Shown: one piece after another, positions 20,202 to 25,685 of the stretch | How the letters are laid out: each line of letters begins with the position of its first letter | How positions within the stretch are numbered: position 1 is the first letter of the stretch | Assembly (NCBI RefSeq): GCF_039539965.1 | Contig: NZ_BAABED010000001.1 | Coordinates: 3,472,001-3,536,000 of the forward strand | From: Arthrobacter methylotrophus | GTDB taxonomy: Bacteria; Actinomycetota; Actinomycetes; Actinomycetales; Micrococcaceae | Length of the DNA: 64,000 nt | Reading direction: 5' to 3' | Notes under the pieces: generated by a model | What the model was told of the DNA's origin: nothing | The model's database searches: none | The model's input: the letters and a program-made list of their open reading frames with translations, nothing else | Made by a program: the position numbers and the translations under genes

Positions 20202-20290
20202 GGTGATTACCAGTCTAGGCGGTGGCTCCGACACTCAATGTCCGGATGACGCGCAGGATTGGTCCACATGAAGGATGCCGCGTCTCGTTC

Positions 20291-20602
20291 CACCGACCCC
20301 AAGGGACATGTCCACCCCTTGCCCCAAGCAGCGGACACAACAGCAATATGTCCACCCCTAGCACCAAGGAATGCGCATGCTCAGCGGAACCGCGGCAATA
20401 TGCCCACCCCTAGCCTCGGGAGGAGAGCATGCCCAAGCGAGAGCCCAGCACCGAAAACCCACACCAGCACGAACTCCCCACCGACCCCAAGGGACATGTC
20501 CACTCCTTGCCGCAAGCAGCGGACACAACAGCAATATGCCCACCCCTAGCACCAAGGAATGCGCATGCTCAGCGGAACCGCGGCAATATGTCCACCCCTA
20601 GC
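20291..20602. repeat. Direct-repeat block between pcrA and the IMPase gene
   Basis: The 419-bp stretch without a gene (20202-20620) is largely repeats. A 124-bp unit at 20291-20414 recurs at 20479-20602 with only a few base changes. Inside, a 17-bp core of the form ATATGTCCACCCCTAGC occurs six times, starting at 20306, 20346, 20398, 20494, 20534 and 20586, with spacing 40, 52, 96, 40, 52. A longer subunit continuing ACCAAGGAATGCGCATGC appears three times. No convincing ORF, transposase or hairpin-defined mobile element is present. Confidence 0.88.
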
Positions 20603-20620
20603 ACCAAGGAATGCGCATGC

Positions 20621-21463
20621 TCAGGCGAATTGCGGTACCGAGGTGAGCGCCGCGCGCAACTCGCGCACCGCCGTCGGGCCCCCGGCAATAAACCAATCCA
20701 GGCCATTGACGCGCACGACGGCGGTGTCCCCGCCTGCCGCGCGGACAATCGCCTTGCCGGGGAGCCAGTCCCACTCGGGGCAGCTATGTTGGAACCAGCA
20801 GCCCAGTTCACCATCGGCCACCCGGCCAAGATCGCAAGAGCCTGAACCAAACATGCGCAGCGAGGCGGCGGACACCGCGGCCGCGTGCCAGGGCATGGCA
20901 GCGCGGGGATCGGCAAGCCACGTGGGGTGGATATAGGTCGCGGCACCCAGCTCGCTGAGGGGCGCTCCCGAGGGTCCCCCTATCCTTTCGCCGTTGAGCG
21001 TGGCGGGGTGTCCTTCGCCGCCGGTCCAGAGCTTGTCCAGCTCCGGTTGGTAGATGGCACCGAGGATGACGTCGGGATCCGAGGCGACTCCATGAGCTGC
21101 CGGCAAGTCATGCCTCAAGGCGATCGCCGAGCACCAATACGTGGAGCCTTGCAGGAAATTGTACGTACCATCGACGGGATCGATCACCCAGGTACGCCCG
21201 CTGCTTCCGGCTACCGAGCTTCCTTCTTCGCCCAGAATGCCGTCCTCCGGGCGGCAGCGGCGCAATTGCTCCAGGACATATGCCTCGGCAGCATGGTCGG
21301 CGGCGGTTACAACGTCCGAGACAGATGTCTTGCGTTCTCCTTGGAGCCCGCCCATCCGCATCAGCAGGGCAAGCTGTCCGGCTTCCCGGACCAGCGCCGC
21401 AGCGAGTTCATAGTCGTCGAGCGAGGGATCGAGTTCTGTGGCGGAGTGCCTGCCAGTGGTCAT
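20621..21463 (-). CDS. Inositol monophosphatase-family phosphatase
   Basis: 280 residues, FIG superfamily, Mg-dependent. Motifs are LGEEGSS (metal Glu), WVIDPVDGTYNFLQG (DPxDGT metal site) and a C-terminal WDWLPGKAIVRAAGG matching the family's WDxAAG motif in altered form. It removes phosphate from inositol phosphates or from histidinol phosphate; the HisN-type phosphatases of actinobacteria belong to the same family and the two cannot be told apart here. It is monocistronic, divergent from the membrane protein at 21488, and its 3' end abuts the direct-repeat block. Confidence 0.88.
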   Translation of the reverse strand: MTTGRHSATELDPSLDDYELAAALVREAGQLALLMRMGGLQGERKTSVSDVVTAADHAAEAYVLEQLRRCRPEDGILGEEGSSVAGSSGRTWVIDPVDGTYNFLQGSTYWCSAIALRHDLPAAHGVASDPDVILGAIYQPELDKLWTGGEGHPATLNGERIGGPSGAPLSELGAATYIHPTWLADPRAAMPWHAAAVSAASLRMFGSGSCDLGRVADGELGCWFQHSCPEWDWLPGKAIVRAAGGDTAVVRVNGLDWFIAGGPTAVRELRAALTSVPQFA

Positions 21464-22128: not shown

Positions 22129-22152
22129 GCTAGCCCCTCGCGGGGGCCTAGC
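22129..22152. terminator. Possible bidirectional hairpin between convergent genes
   Basis: GCTAGCCCC and a downstream GGGGGCCTAGC can pair with a one-base bulge around TCGC, in the 24-bp gap between the membrane protein and TPR gene stops. There is no clear U-tract. Confidence 0.4.
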
Positions 22153-23203
22153 CTTGCTGCGAATCGTCTTGCTGCGAATCAGGTCCCGGAGAGAGCATCT
22201 CGCGGGCTTGGCGGGCACGTTGGGGGGCGCCGGCTTTGTCGAAGCGATGGGCCGCTTCCACGAGGCTTTCCTTTGCTGCTTCCTGGCTGCCGGTCTCGGC
22301 TTGGGCACGTGCCATCAAGAGAAATATTTCGCCTGCGATCTGCGAAGGCAGCTGGTCGGCGTTGCCTTTGATGTCCTCCAGCAGCTCGAGTGCCGCTGCG
22401 GCGTCTCCCGCCAAATAATTCCAATGCGCGCGGTTGAGCCGGAGCAGGAGAATTTCCTCCTCGCTGCCTCCGACAACTTCCGTGGCAAGCTCCGCCCGTT
22501 CAATGCATCGCAGGGTGGCAGCGTCTGCCACTTCCGCCGCCAGTCTCATCGCGGCTGACGCCTTGTTGAACTTTGCCCAGACATCAAGGTTCCGGGAAGG
22601 GGAGAACGTTTCGGCGGCAAGCTCGTGGTAGTGGAGGCCCTCACCGACCTTGTCCCCCAGGAAAGCCACGTTGCCGATCACCCAGTAGGCTTTGCCGGCC
22701 AACTGGTCATCCATTTCATCGGAGATTCTTGCCGAGAGGGACAGGCATTCCTTCCATGCCTCGCCAAGTTTGCCGGATTCGCCAAACGCAGCGATCAGGG
22801 CTTGCCGGGCGTGTACGTCGATTTCCATGTCCGCATCGTCATCGACCAATCCAACTGCCGACGCCGCAGTCTCGATGGCTTGCTCCAGGAGACCCTCGCT
22901 TCGCAGGGAGTTCGCCAGCATTGTGAGGGCCCTGGCCCTGTGTTGCGGTGAAGCCGCAGCCAACGATGCCTCGGAAAGAGATTTCGCCAGAGCGGTGCAC
23001 TCAGCGAAATCACCGGCGTCGAGAAGATTTTCTGCTTGAAGGAACGTCATATTCCACCACCCTGTGGAATCACCCTCGTCTAGGGCAATATCGGCGGCCG
23101 AACGCGCACCATCGGCAGCCTTGGTGAACTCGTGGCTGGCCCGATGGCCCCTCGCCTCCAGCTCCACGGCAGCGTATGACGGCGCAACCTTCTTTTCTCG
23201 CAT
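22148..23203 (-). CDS. TPR-repeat protein divergent from the AIGWWPN peptide gene
   Basis: 351 residues, mostly helical, with TPR-like repeats: segments such as EAWKECLSLSARI, AYWVIGNVAFLGDKVGEGLHYHELAAETF, RLNRAHWNYLAGDAAAALELLEDI and AGEIFLLMARAQAETGSQEAAKESLVEA have the helix-turn-helix spacing of tetratricopeptide units. No DNA-binding helix-turn-helix, membrane segment or enzyme motif is visible, so it should be a cytoplasmic protein- or peptide-binding scaffold. Start ATG 23203 has GGAG very close; the frame stays open to 23251. It shares a 171-bp divergent promoter region with the secreted repeat peptide. This geometry recalls Rap-type (RRNPP) peptide-sensing TPR proteins of Firmicutes; that link is inference. 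Confidence 0.8.
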   Translation of the reverse strand: MREKKVAPSYAAVELEARGHRASHEFTKAADGARSAADIALDEGDSTGWWNMTFLQAENLLDAGDFAECTALAKSLSEASLAAASPQHRARALTMLANSLRSEGLLEQAIETAASAVGLVDDDADMEIDVHARQALIAAFGESGKLGEAWKECLSLSARISDEMDDQLAGKAYWVIGNVAFLGDKVGEGLHYHELAAETFSPSRNLDVWAKFNKASAAMRLAAEVADAATLRCIERAELATEVVGGSEEEILLLRLNRAHWNYLAGDAAAALELLEDIKGNADQLPSQIAGEIFLLMARAQAETGSQEAAKESLVEAAHRFDKAGAPQRARQAREMLSPGPDSQQDDSQQG

Positions 23204-23222
23204 AGCTCCATTATGTCTCCGA

Positions 23223-23315
23223 GACACTCTGTCACGGCTTCGGGTCGGCAATTAGCACGATTTTTTAGTTTGCAGACAAAGCGTTGATGACACGGCGTGT
23301 CGTTACTCTTATAAT
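23223..23315. promoter_or_regulatory. Divergent promoter region with two palindromes
   Basis: A consensus TATAAT (23310-23315) on the plus strand precedes the peptide gene by 60 bp, with a TTGATG -35 candidate at 23284-23289. The palindrome GACACGGCGTGTC (23289-23301) lies between the two boxes. A related element GACACTCTGTC (23223-23233) lies 20 bp from the TPR start. A shared operator for both divergent genes is plausible. Confidence 0.5.
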
Positions 23316-23374
23316 TAGCGTGCTTCACTTCGTTCACTCCAGTCGCATCAGTCACAAATCATCAGGAGCTTTCT

Positions 23375-23656
23375 ATGAAAAGAACTATTGCCGCCCTCCT
23401 CGCGGCCGCAGCAATCTTGCTCGCCGGAATCACCGGCTCGGCGGCCGTTTCCGCCAGCAGCCAGAGCCCCTCGCAGGATTCGTCCATAGCCATTGGCTGG
23501 TGGCCGAACTTCGCTACCCAGGCTCAGGCCATTGGCTGGTGGCCCAACGCCGCCACACAGGACTCGGCTCAGGCCATTGGCTGGTGGCCCAACGCCGCCA
23601 CCCAGGGCTCGCCTCAGGCCATCGGCTGGTGGCCCAACTCCACCCCGTCCAACTAG
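23375..23656 (+). CDS. Secreted peptide with four AIGWWPN repeats
   Basis: 93 residues. A Sec signal peptide (MKRTIAALLAAAAILLAG..., likely cut after AVSA, residue 27) is followed by four identical heptads AIGWWPN at residues 39-45, 52-58, 67-73 and 82-88, separated by variable Gln/Thr/Ser-rich linkers. The heptads differ only at synonymous sites, while the linkers change in length and residues. Start ATG 23375 has AGGAG eight bases upstream, with a consensus TATAAT further up and a terminator right after the stop, so it is a complete monocistronic unit. There is no anchor or catalytic domain. It may be a multi-copy peptide precursor (pheromone or antimicrobial) or a repetitive surface-active protein. 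I recognise no family. Confidence 0.85.
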   Translation: MKRTIAALLAAAAILLAGITGSAAVSASSQSPSQDSSIAIGWWPNFATQAQAIGWWPNAATQDSAQAIGWWPNAATQGSPQAIGWWPNSTPSN

Positions 23657-23665
23657 TTACACCTG

Positions 23666-23697
23666 AAAGGCACCGGACCAAGAGGTCCGGTGCCTTT
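23666..23697 (+). terminator. Intrinsic terminator of the repeat-peptide gene
   Basis: Perfect 14-bp stem (23666-23679 with 23684-23697) and an AAGA tetraloop, 10 bp after the stop. Its ends are AAA/TTT, so it may also serve the convergent GGDEF-EAL gene. Confidence 0.85.
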
Positions 23698-23728: not shown

Positions 23729-25249
23729 TCAAGTGCCGCGCAGCAGTTCCGCGAATTGTTCCGGTGGCATGGGGCGGCCGAAGTGATATCCTTGACCGCT
23801 GGCGCAGCCCAGGCGGCCAAGCTCGGCTGCCTGCTCTGCCGTCTCAATGCCCTCGGCAACGGCCTGCATTCCACACGCATGGATGAGCTGGAGAACCGCC
23901 GCGACGAACTCCCGTTCCTTGTCGTCCGTACCCAGGCCCTGAATCAGGGAGCGGTCAATCTTGACCACGTTGACGGGCAGGCTGCGCAAGTAGCTGATGG
24001 ACGAATAGCCGGTACCAAAATCATCGATTTCCAGTCGGATGCCCAAGCGCCGAAGGCCGGTTAGAGAGTATCTGTCAATGTCGCTGCCATTTACCGCCAT
24101 GGACTCCGTCAGCTCGATGACCAACCTGGACGCCTCCACTCCGGTCTCGGCAAGCACCTCCCGCACATGCTCGATCAACTCCAGGCTTTGCAGTTCGGTT
24201 GTCGAAATATTGACCCGCATGCTGAAGTTTTCGTCCACGCCCGGGCCATCCTGCCATAAGCGCAATTGCCGCATTGCTTGACGAAGAACCCAATAGCCGA
24301 GATCGATGATGATGCCGGTTTCCTCGGCCAGTGGAATGAACGCATCCGGCATCAGCAATCCCCTGTCCGGGTGGTTCCACCGCACCAAGGCCTCCGCACC
24401 TTCAACCCGGCCGGATTTCAACTCGACAACAGGCTGGAAGTGAAGGACAAGCTGATCTGTCCGGATGGCTTCACGCAGCTCCGAGATCATGAGTCCCTGG
24501 AGTCGGCGCGCATACAGTAATGCCGGCTCGAAGACCTTGACGCTGCTCCGATGCTCCGCCTTTGCCGCGTACATGGCCGTATCGGCTTCCATCACGAGGT
24601 CGTCGACGGACTGACCCGGCTCGGCAACGCGGAGTCCGATACTGGTTCCACAGATGATCCGCACTTCTCCGATATCGATGCTCTCGCCTACGGCCCGGAG
24701 GATTCGCTTGGCTACCCCCCGAGCATAGGCCGCATTGGATTTGGGCAGCATGACGGCAAACTCATCCCCGCCGAGCCTGGCCACCATGTCGTTGTCGCGG
24801 ACGGCAGCGAGCAAGCGTCTGGCAGTGACCTTCAAAACGGTGTCTCCCGCGCCGTGCCCTAGGGTGTCGTTGATCCCTTTGAACGAGTTCAAGTCCATTA
24901 CGAGCAACGCAGGAGGGAGTTCGCCGCGCTCCGCTTCGACGAGTTCATGGCTCAGCGCCCTTTCGAGCGCCGTGCGGTTGGCCAACTGGGTCAGCGGATC
25001 AGTGAGCGCCATCCTTTCAAGTTCGATTTGGGCCTCGCGCAGCATGGCTGTTCGGCTTTGGACCCGTTCCTCGAGCTCTTGGTAGATGGCTTGGAGATCG
25101 TCCGCCATAAGGTTGATGCCGGTAATGACGGCAGCCACTTCGTCCCGCGGTCCGGTAACCGGGATTCGCGTGCTGAGGTCGCCGTCCGCAATCCGGACCA
25201 CCCCTTCAACGAGGGCAAGGAGTCGCGGATCCTGGGGCTCATGATTCAC
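23729..25249 (-). CDS. GGDEF-EAL bifunctional c-di-GMP enzyme
   Basis: 506 residues. An N-terminal HAMP-like helix pair (residues 15-75, ending in a coiled coil) without any membrane segment is followed by a GGDEF domain with intact GGDEF (160-164) and an RxxD inhibitory site (RDND, 151-154). A complete EAL domain follows (EAL at 286-288, DDFGTGYSS at 409-417, IKxD-type KIDRSL). Both synthesis and hydrolysis of c-di-GMP look possible. A free HAMP in a soluble protein suggests regulation by a partner; the STAS-like gene upstream overlaps it by 11 bp and is the obvious candidate. Its stop is 32 bp from the peptide terminator. Confidence 0.92.
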   Translation of the reverse strand: MNHEPQDPRLLALVEGVVRIADGDLSTRIPVTGPRDEVAAVITGINLMADDLQAIYQELEERVQSRTAMLREAQIELERMALTDPLTQLANRTALERALSHELVEAERGELPPALLVMDLNSFKGINDTLGHGAGDTVLKVTARRLLAAVRDNDMVARLGGDEFAVMLPKSNAAYARGVAKRILRAVGESIDIGEVRIICGTSIGLRVAEPGQSVDDLVMEADTAMYAAKAEHRSSVKVFEPALLYARRLQGLMISELREAIRTDQLVLHFQPVVELKSGRVEGAEALVRWNHPDRGLLMPDAFIPLAEETGIIIDLGYWVLRQAMRQLRLWQDGPGVDENFSMRVNISTTELQSLELIEHVREVLAETGVEASRLVIELTESMAVNGSDIDRYSLTGLRRLGIRLEIDDFGTGYSSISYLRSLPVNVVKIDRSLIQGLGTDDKEREFVAAVLQLIHACGMQAVAEGIETAEQAAELGRLGCASGQGYHFGRPMPPEQFAELLRGT

Positions 25250-25685
25250 GATGGTGCTTCCTCAACCAGTCGCGGGCTTCCGCCTCGGATGTGAAGAATT
25301 GCGCCGGAAGGGAACCGGGCTTCGCTCGCAGGAGAAAGTGGGCGATCACCCGGTCCACCGGGCTTTCCCCCAGCAAAGCACAGGCCGAAACAACCACCGA
25401 GTTCGTGTAGGTGACGCGCGCGTCGCTGGTGACGGACAGCACTCCGGTCACCGTCAGCAGAACCGGTATCCGCCCTCCACCCGCAAACCCACGAACAGCT
25501 GCGGCGGCTGCCCGGGCTTCCGGCAAGCCGACAACGGCATTCGGCGGCAAAGTGACTTCAACAATGCCGTCTTCTGCCAAGTCGACGGTGATCGGACCTG
25601 CAGGCGCGGAGTCCTCCCCCCTTGAGACACCAAGCGCATCATCTGGAAACCGGGAGTCGTGGACCGGAAGTGCCTGGGCGCTCAT
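25239..25685 (-). CDS. STAS/SpoIIAA-like small protein preceding the GGDEF-EAL gene
   Basis: 148 residues. After about 30 disordered residues the pattern GPITVDLAEDGIVEVTLPPNAVVGLPEARAAAAAVRGFAGGGRIPVLLTVTGVLSV fits the beta-beta-alpha-beta layout of small SpoIIAA-like/DUF7793-type domains. Its end ARDWLRKHHRES recalls AEEWLxxH tails of that group. No enzyme motif. It overlaps the GGDEF-EAL start by 11 bp, so the two are coupled and probably interact. The function is not known. The 277 bp upstream (25686-25962) hold no gene I can support. Confidence 0.7.
   Translation of the reverse strand: MSAQALPVHDSRFPDDALGVSRGEDSAPAGPITVDLAEDGIVEVTLPPNAVVGLPEARAAAAAVRGFAGGGRIPVLLTVTGVLSVTSDARVTYTNSVVVSACALLGESPVDRVIAHFLLRAKPGSLPAQFFTSEAEARDWLRKHHRES

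Follow-up and report, generated by a model that had tools for sequence, protein, structure and literature searches.

A conserved peptide and TPR protein gene pair in Arthrobacter, a putative signalling module linked to a GGDEF-EAL gene

On a 64,000-nucleotide stretch of the Arthrobacter methylotrophus genome (contig NZ_BAABED010000001.1; hereafter the window), a small gene for a repetitive peptide precursor lies divergent from a gene for a soluble TPR protein. Comparison with related genomes indicates that the two form a real module. We consider it probable, at about 0.68, that this is a peptide-TPR signalling module in which the peptide serves as a pheromone.

The peptide gene (23375..23656, + strand, ATG start) encodes 93 residues and has homologues in the genus and in other genera. 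The N-terminus of its product is basic and is followed by a hydrophobic stretch (15-residue mean hydropathy of 2.73 at residue 5). By inspection this signal-like region ends in an AxA-type motif, ..SAAVSA-SS, and we regard it as a putative signal peptide for Sec export. Four AIGWWPN cores start at residues 39, 52, 67 and 82, with a spacing of 13, 15 and 15, and five residues trail the last core. The heptads have the same protein sequence and vary in DNA solely by ATT/ATC and CCG/CCC, which gives six synonymous and no nonsynonymous differences over all pairs of copies. The original prediction, made from this DNA alone, had described the product in these terms, from the signal-like start to the synonymous changes, and was accurate throughout. 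No Pfam match was found for the peptide at E values up to 1, and no family reached its cut-off in Pfam or NCBIfam; the hit to another well-known family that had been named beforehand as evidence against a signalling system thus did not appear.

The divergent gene (22148..23203, - strand) encodes an HTH-less TPR protein of 351 residues, a putative intracellular peptide receptor. The ATG at 23203 (MREKK...) was preferred as its start over the TTG at 23251. Pfam gave TPR-type matches that were all under cut-off (best, TPR_MalT, 1.8e-5), further matches to SNAP (0.044) and NRF (0.19), and no HTH at E values up to 1, in agreement with the soluble protein without a DNA-binding domain that had been predicted. 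An AlphaFold2 model built on 64 sequences (pLDDT 92.3) contains 17 helices that form a continuous helical repeat over residues 8-335, with no HTH or three-helix bundle before residue 8. By prediction, then, the protein adopts a TPR fold.

We searched for TPR homologues in 99 genomes and found them in 62 overall and in 61/61 genomes of the genus set, composed of the window's assembly and 60 others flagged as the same genus. All 61 carry a paralogue that combines an XRE-type HTH with the TPR domain, usually of about 420-430 residues; that of the window's genome (L002) matches HTH_31 (1.6e-11) and HTH_3 (7.5e-11) in Pfam, and the reading frame is split in G053. The HTH-less form is present in 33 of the 61 genomes, the window's included, always in addition to the XRE paralogue. 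Upstream DNA was read for all 61 XRE and 33 HTH-less genes. Beside every one of these 94 receptor genes (61/61 XRE, 33/33 HTH-less) lies a divergent small ORF whose product combines a signal-like start with a W-P core; its first codon is 108-248 nt away from the TPR match. The proposed check of whether TPR genes and ORFs with WP cores always go together was thus borne out, within the genus, from the receptor side. In Arthrobacter sp. Hiyo8 (L012:2802-3832), the TPR match falls into two overlapping pieces, indicating a broken gene or a sequencing error.

The peptides linked to the XRE form have one to four cores, with GNWPDP in 58/61 and GNWPYPV, GIWPDPM and GNWPNPM in the remaining three. Those linked to the HTH-less form have one to six, of the types GWWPN, GWWPD, NWWPN, EYWPN and DYWPN, with GWWPH, GWWPK and GSWPN occurring singly. 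The cores of the two receptor types thus mostly differ, being WWPN-like beside HTH-less genes and NWPDP beside XRE genes. Precursor length ranges from 44 to 121 residues over the 94 loci (five exceed 100), and at 14 of the 33 HTH-less loci a 44-52-residue precursor contains just one core. Since 75 of the 94 precursors end right after the core (..WPx or ..WPxPx), the active peptide unit most likely ends there as well.

We then compared the repeats inside each gene. With W and P left out, pN/pS over the 94 genus genes was 0.17 in the cores versus 0.62 in the spacers, and with W and P included, over 112 genes, it was 0.10 versus 0.57; these counts pool related genes and repeat pairs that are not independent, and therefore no p-value is claimed. 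The values show that the cores are constrained and the spacers much less so, in keeping with the earlier proposal that selection acts on the heptad. The W-P is kept while the cores vary by lineage (GWWPN, NWWPN, EYWPN, GIWPD, GNWPD, GDWPH, GLWPY), and copy number spans one to eight over the genus and other genera, as would be expected of a pheromone.

An exported peptide that is short and rich in Trp and Pro, with lineage-specific core variation, could also be an antimicrobial or interbacterial toxin, the TPR protein then providing immunity or control of expression. Residues 1-37 of the window peptide indeed resemble a bacteriocin-type NCBIfam family weakly (E 0.078, 13.3 bits, cut-off 40), but the match covers mainly the signal region. 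Moreover, the XRE pair shows no patchiness, being found in 61/61 genomes, the partner in this paralogous pair is a regulator of the DNA-binding type, and short constrained cores amid freer spacers suit multi-copy processing, all of which makes a toxin improbable. We give hardly any weight to the idea of a RiPP or metal-binding precursor with the TPR protein as its chaperone, for which the resemblance of an XRE-linked peptide to HvfA in NCBIfam (E 0.43, 11.2 bits) might speak, but this match is far under the cut-off of 95.

The pairing extends to other genera. With the XRE-TPR protein as the query, 144 of 295 family genomes matched, in 17 of 32 genera (E up to 1e-12), and 40 loci from other genera, picked among the matches listed, were read. 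They contain 12 HTH-less genes, one of them at a contig end, and a WP peptide was present beside all 11 with readable upstream DNA (cores KVGNWPD, KVGNWPG, KIGDWPN, GIWPY, GLWPY, AGWWPN, NWWPN, MGNWPH, DDWPH, DNWPN). A WP peptide also lies beside 13 of the 31 XRE genes (cores GNWPDPM, FVGNWPDAV x5, PGIWPD, VWIWPD, VGDWPH x8 in an ORF starting with TTG, VGEWPH and further types; L191 has a TTG start). Together with the 61/61 and 33/33 of the genus, these counts lend strong support to what the original prediction had put forward as a novelty, an actinobacterial TPR receptor that goes with a multi-copy precursor. In one other genus, L208, L209 and L210 have tandem HTH-less TPR genes, and wherever the upstream DNA was readable, a separate divergent WP peptide accompanies each of them.

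No peptide was recognisable alongside the other 18 of the 31 XRE genes; one of them, L201, has a short ORF that ends in AVGNWPD and has no signal. In a phylogeny of 84 TPR domains, built by a quick method and with no bootstrap, the HTH-less proteins form a single clade (SH-aLRT 98), and the peptide-less receptors are scattered, many with long branches. This is most simply read as an ancient peptide that was lost beside some XRE receptors, which might listen to peptides made elsewhere. Extra XRE-TPR genes with long branches and no recognisable peptide were seen in L185, L189, L193, L198, L199 and L205, possibly eavesdropping or decaying receptors. Groove residues such as W174, N178, W209, N213, R220, R258 and W261 are conserved in the peptide-linked receptors and nearly as highly in the 18 without a peptide, so that groove conservation does not discriminate, and we dropped it as a test. 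At the level of the order, 18 of 297 genomes matched at 1e-15, 15 of them within the family. Homologues outside the family were weak and came from three genomes of one other family; the only one read (L140) has no WP peptide.

A new finding of this analysis is the linkage of the HTH-less TPR gene to a GGDEF-EAL gene. In the window, the gene convergent with that of the peptide (23729..25249, - strand) encodes a HAMP-GGDEF-EAL protein of 506 residues, the putative output (Pfam: EAL 4.7e-76, GGDEF 1.1e-40, HAMP 1.4e-8). Its catalytic GGDEF and EAL motifs are intact (GGDEF at 160, EALVRW, ELTES, DDFGTG, EGIE), and a membrane segment is not evident, with a highest 19-residue hydropathy of 1.41. The start of the gene is overlapped by one for a DUF7793/SpoIIAA-like protein of 148 residues (25239..25685, - strand; PF25056, 2.3e-18). 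Many of these genomes encode several proteins of this DUF7793/SpoIIAA-like type. Beyond the TPR gene, two 151-nt direct repeats, 90% identical (20290-20440 and 20478-20628), sit in the gap between uvrD-like and inositol-monophosphatase-like genes.

Genes neighbouring the pair in the window and in one XRE locus were compared across genera. In 33/33 genomes, 39-1151 bp separate the HTH-less TPR match from the best GGDEF-EAL match (partial in G053), and the 22 longer HTH-less stretches contain a GGDEF-EAL gene in 22/22 and a SpoIIAA-like gene in 20/22. Three gene orders were found, two of which have TPR and GGDEF-EAL on one strand. At the window's site, the SpoIIAA-like and GGDEF-EAL genes lie beyond the peptide; in G033 and G023, TPR is followed by GGDEF-EAL on the same strand; in G020 and G028, and in G248, G135 and G129 from other genera, TPR is followed by SpoIIAA-like and GGDEF-EAL, again on the same strand. 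The linkage spans two chromosomal sites and several genera; in L217-L220, from one other genus, TPR and GGDEF-EAL are 4-5 kb apart in three loci and adjacent in one. From such proximity in 33/33 genomes and in three orders, the output of the HTH-less TPR protein may be c-di-GMP, through the HAMP-GGDEF-EAL enzyme, and not transcription.

GGDEF-EAL-type enzymes are often tied to biofilm, and this neighbour, together with the signal-like start and the repeats of variable copy number, would also suit a structural or surface-active protein of an envelope or biofilm coat, with TPR genes that merely regulate it or sense its export. However, the 14 HTH-less loci with one core in 44-52 residues would yield a small product for a coat, and constraint is concentrated on the core. 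We therefore find a coat protein hard to credit and retain the signalling module as the preferred reading.

The window's genome has a second WP-peptide gene (L004:1450-1635, + strand; G000:C1:386234-386416), which terminates in ASIGWWPN-stop and lacks a TPR neighbour. Five of its flanking frames, all of them mechanical frames of which some may be antisense, match the HTH-less TPR/GGDEF-EAL/peptide loci of G033, G041 and G028 at 71-96%, and a sixth, over a kinase, matches at 37-43%. Given these matches to the relatives' loci, the gene is most likely a leftover of an older site. A search of 47 genomes showed that this second precursor is kept in 7/7 genomes of the window's subclade (L271-L277), with a GWWPN end each time and, in all seven, a response regulator of the OmpR type on one side and a histidine kinase on the other; three further genomes gave weak matches of 31% without a WP peptide. 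Repeat genes routinely found without a TPR neighbour had been foreseen as an argument against the proposal. They are not routine, but these seven genomes do each have one extra TPR-less peptide gene. The residue before GWWPN agrees between the unlinked and linked precursors in G000, G012 and G045 (I) and in G051 (T), agrees partly in G022 (unlinked V; linked T and one V) and disagrees in G043 and G054 (unlinked I; linked T, or T and V); as the match is only partial, we dropped it as support.

The GGDEF-EAL gene is also present in 27 of the 28 genus genomes that lack the HTH-less TPR gene (two are partial matches). In 10/10 of the TPR-less loci read, it lies right behind a REC-HisKA-HATPase-type kinase (Pfam on two), so the enzyme can do without the TPR protein. 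Of 12 HTH-less loci situated elsewhere than the window's site, 7 have next to the peptide a kinase of the family that flanks the second precursor (43-59% identical); at the window's site the count is 0/4. From the arrangement of kinase and GGDEF-EAL genes across loci, the peptide-TPR pair looks like a cassette that can have a kinase on one side and a c-di-GMP enzyme on the other.

The enzyme's presence without the TPR protein leaves room for a variant in which signalling is real but the HTH-less protein binds the XRE-TPR paralogue or soaks up peptide, the GGDEF-EAL linkage then reflecting only the shared history of the locus. The XRE paralogue accompanies the HTH-less form in 33/33 genomes, which speaks for this variant. 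The persistence of the linkage over three orders, two sites and several genera argues against it, as do cores that mostly differ by receptor type (WWPN-like versus NWPDP). We think it rather unlikely, though as a form of the signalling reading its odds overlap those of our main explanation.

The start codons of the two divergent genes in the window are 171 nt apart. Reading by eye, we recovered the promoter, ribosome-binding site and terminator that had been ascribed to the peptide gene: a TATAAT -10-like hexamer at 23310..23315 (+ strand), present in 7/7 of the closest HTH-less loci, an AGGAG sequence at 23364..23368 (+ strand) and a terminator-like hairpin at 23666..23697, between the convergent peptide and GGDEF-EAL genes. 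A perfect, operator-like palindrome, GACACGGCGTGTC, lies upstream of the -10 hexamer (23289..23301). A motif count across loci found it in 7 of the 33 HTH-less loci, solely the seven closest, and it is lineage-specific. The XRE loci share another, palindromic promoter element in the intergenic DNA, around CTTGACAGnCnCTGTGGAAAACATTTTACAATGTATGTCAACAAGG, with ACAG-N3-CTGT in 58/61 of them (shuffled mean, 0.1) and in 0/33 HTH-less loci. A single operator for all classes was thus discarded. The 21-nt core of the XRE element, with up to three mismatches, has a single occurrence in the window's genome, in the gap that separates the XRE gene from its peptide gene; a sole genomic copy suits autoregulation better than a large regulon. 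In six of the seven XRE loci that were read over a longer stretch (L042, L046, L232, L233, L234, L236; not L235), the pair has two ABC transporter genes nearby, which possibly encode an exporter. The window's genome has ten SBP_bac_5 matches, two of which abut and may be one gene, making peptide import possible.

We propose that the precursor is exported via Sec and would be cut extracellularly into short peptide copies that end at or just after ..GWWPN. The short peptide would re-enter through an oligopeptide permease and bind the TPR protein, in the cytoplasm, within its groove. The XRE-HTH paralogue with its own GNWPDP peptide, present in every genus genome searched, would be the transcription-regulating form. 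The HTH-less form would act through the neighbouring HAMP-GGDEF-EAL enzyme, perhaps aided by the SpoIIAA-like protein, and the peptide would tune c-di-GMP according to population density. More tentative, and in our estimate somewhat short of an even chance, is the wider view of a W-P-core pheromone/TPR family across one actinobacterial family, in which the HTH receptor governs transcription and its HTH-less descendant would have exchanged DNA binding for direct control, gated by the peptide, over a c-di-GMP enzyme.

Tandem identical bioactive units whose spacers are cut away are known from yeast alpha-factor-like and neuropeptide-like precursors; these are eukaryotic with GPCR receptors, and the likeness is an analogy only. 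Closer are the RRNPP/RRNPPA systems of Bacillota (Rap-Phr, NprR-NprX, PlcR-PapR, AimR-AimP), which likewise have adjacent genes for an exported propeptide and a cytoplasmic TPR receptor, and receptor forms with and without an HTH; the existence of an XRE-HTH paralogue is what RRNPP logic would suggest. The receptors described here have 340-430 residues, and an N-terminal HTH, a feature of RRNPP members other than Rap, is present in the XRE paralogue only. RRNPP propeptides are expected to have 10-100 residues and to leave the cell through Sec; that of the window has 93, and those of the genus loci 44 to 121, with signal-like starts by inspection. In contrast to RRNPP systems, which surveys describe for Bacillota and viruses, the pair described here belongs to Actinomycetota, has a conserved W-P core in up to eight copies, and includes an HTH-less form that lacks the three-helix bundle and is linked to GGDEF-EAL. 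Multi-copy propeptides occur in RRNPP systems too, according to the available text of two papers (PMC11343458, PMC9765709).

Searches did not tie the receptors to RRNPP proteins. In a fold search LGN was top-scoring for both models, above Rap and NprR, and other TPR proteins were intermixed with these two; the TPR fold being common to many unrelated proteins, we dropped this search as a pointer to RRNPP. A sequence search of the PDB returned mainly designer PPR and TPR chains, probably on account of repeat composition. In profile searches, RapF appeared only at E 0.94-0.95 with an XRE-led profile and was not among the matches listed with the window-led one, and no specific sequence similarity to RRNPP proteins was found by PDB sequence or profile searches. 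The N-terminal three-helix bundle of Rap is shared with NprR, as described in the available part of PMC9765709. As the predicted TPR helices start at residue 8, the window protein has no room for this bundle and is not classed as Rap. The earlier comparison with Rap is thus not supported in detail, the conserved neighbours being GGDEF-EAL and SpoIIAA-like as well. As no specific homology was found, the protein is not classed in a known RRNPP subfamily either. By analogy, the module would work like RRNPP quorum sensing and fits no described family.

A partial parallel for the proposed output is Vibrio RcbA/RcbB, in which a TPR protein encoded beside a TPR-GGDEF diguanylate cyclase controls it; there the cyclase itself has a TPR domain, the organism is distant, and the available text mentions no peptide (PMC12282931). 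Surveys, in their available portions, discuss quorum sensing by peptides perceived inside the cell as something that belongs to Bacillota and the mobile elements of these bacteria (PMC10075063, PMC9765709, PMC12700828). The accessible sections of a 2016 review of Actinobacteria give only AAA, LuxR-like and REC domains as evidence for Arthrobacter, list TPR among the domains of some other genera, e.g., Streptomyces and Rhodococcus, and describe actinobacterial signals generally as cyclic or modified peptides and butyrolactones (PMC4748050). No TPR-peptide system in Actinomycetota was among the matches listed from a literature mostly without subscription papers and without bioRxiv preprints.

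If our reading is true, the RRNPP-type principle would extend to another phylum. If the HTH-less receptor does control the c-di-GMP enzyme, this would be, to our knowledge, the first case of a peptide pheromone perceived inside the cell with a direct line to a second messenger. Common soil bacteria would then have a testable, genus-wide peptide language with an apparent route to c-di-GMP, and would offer a simple experimental system.
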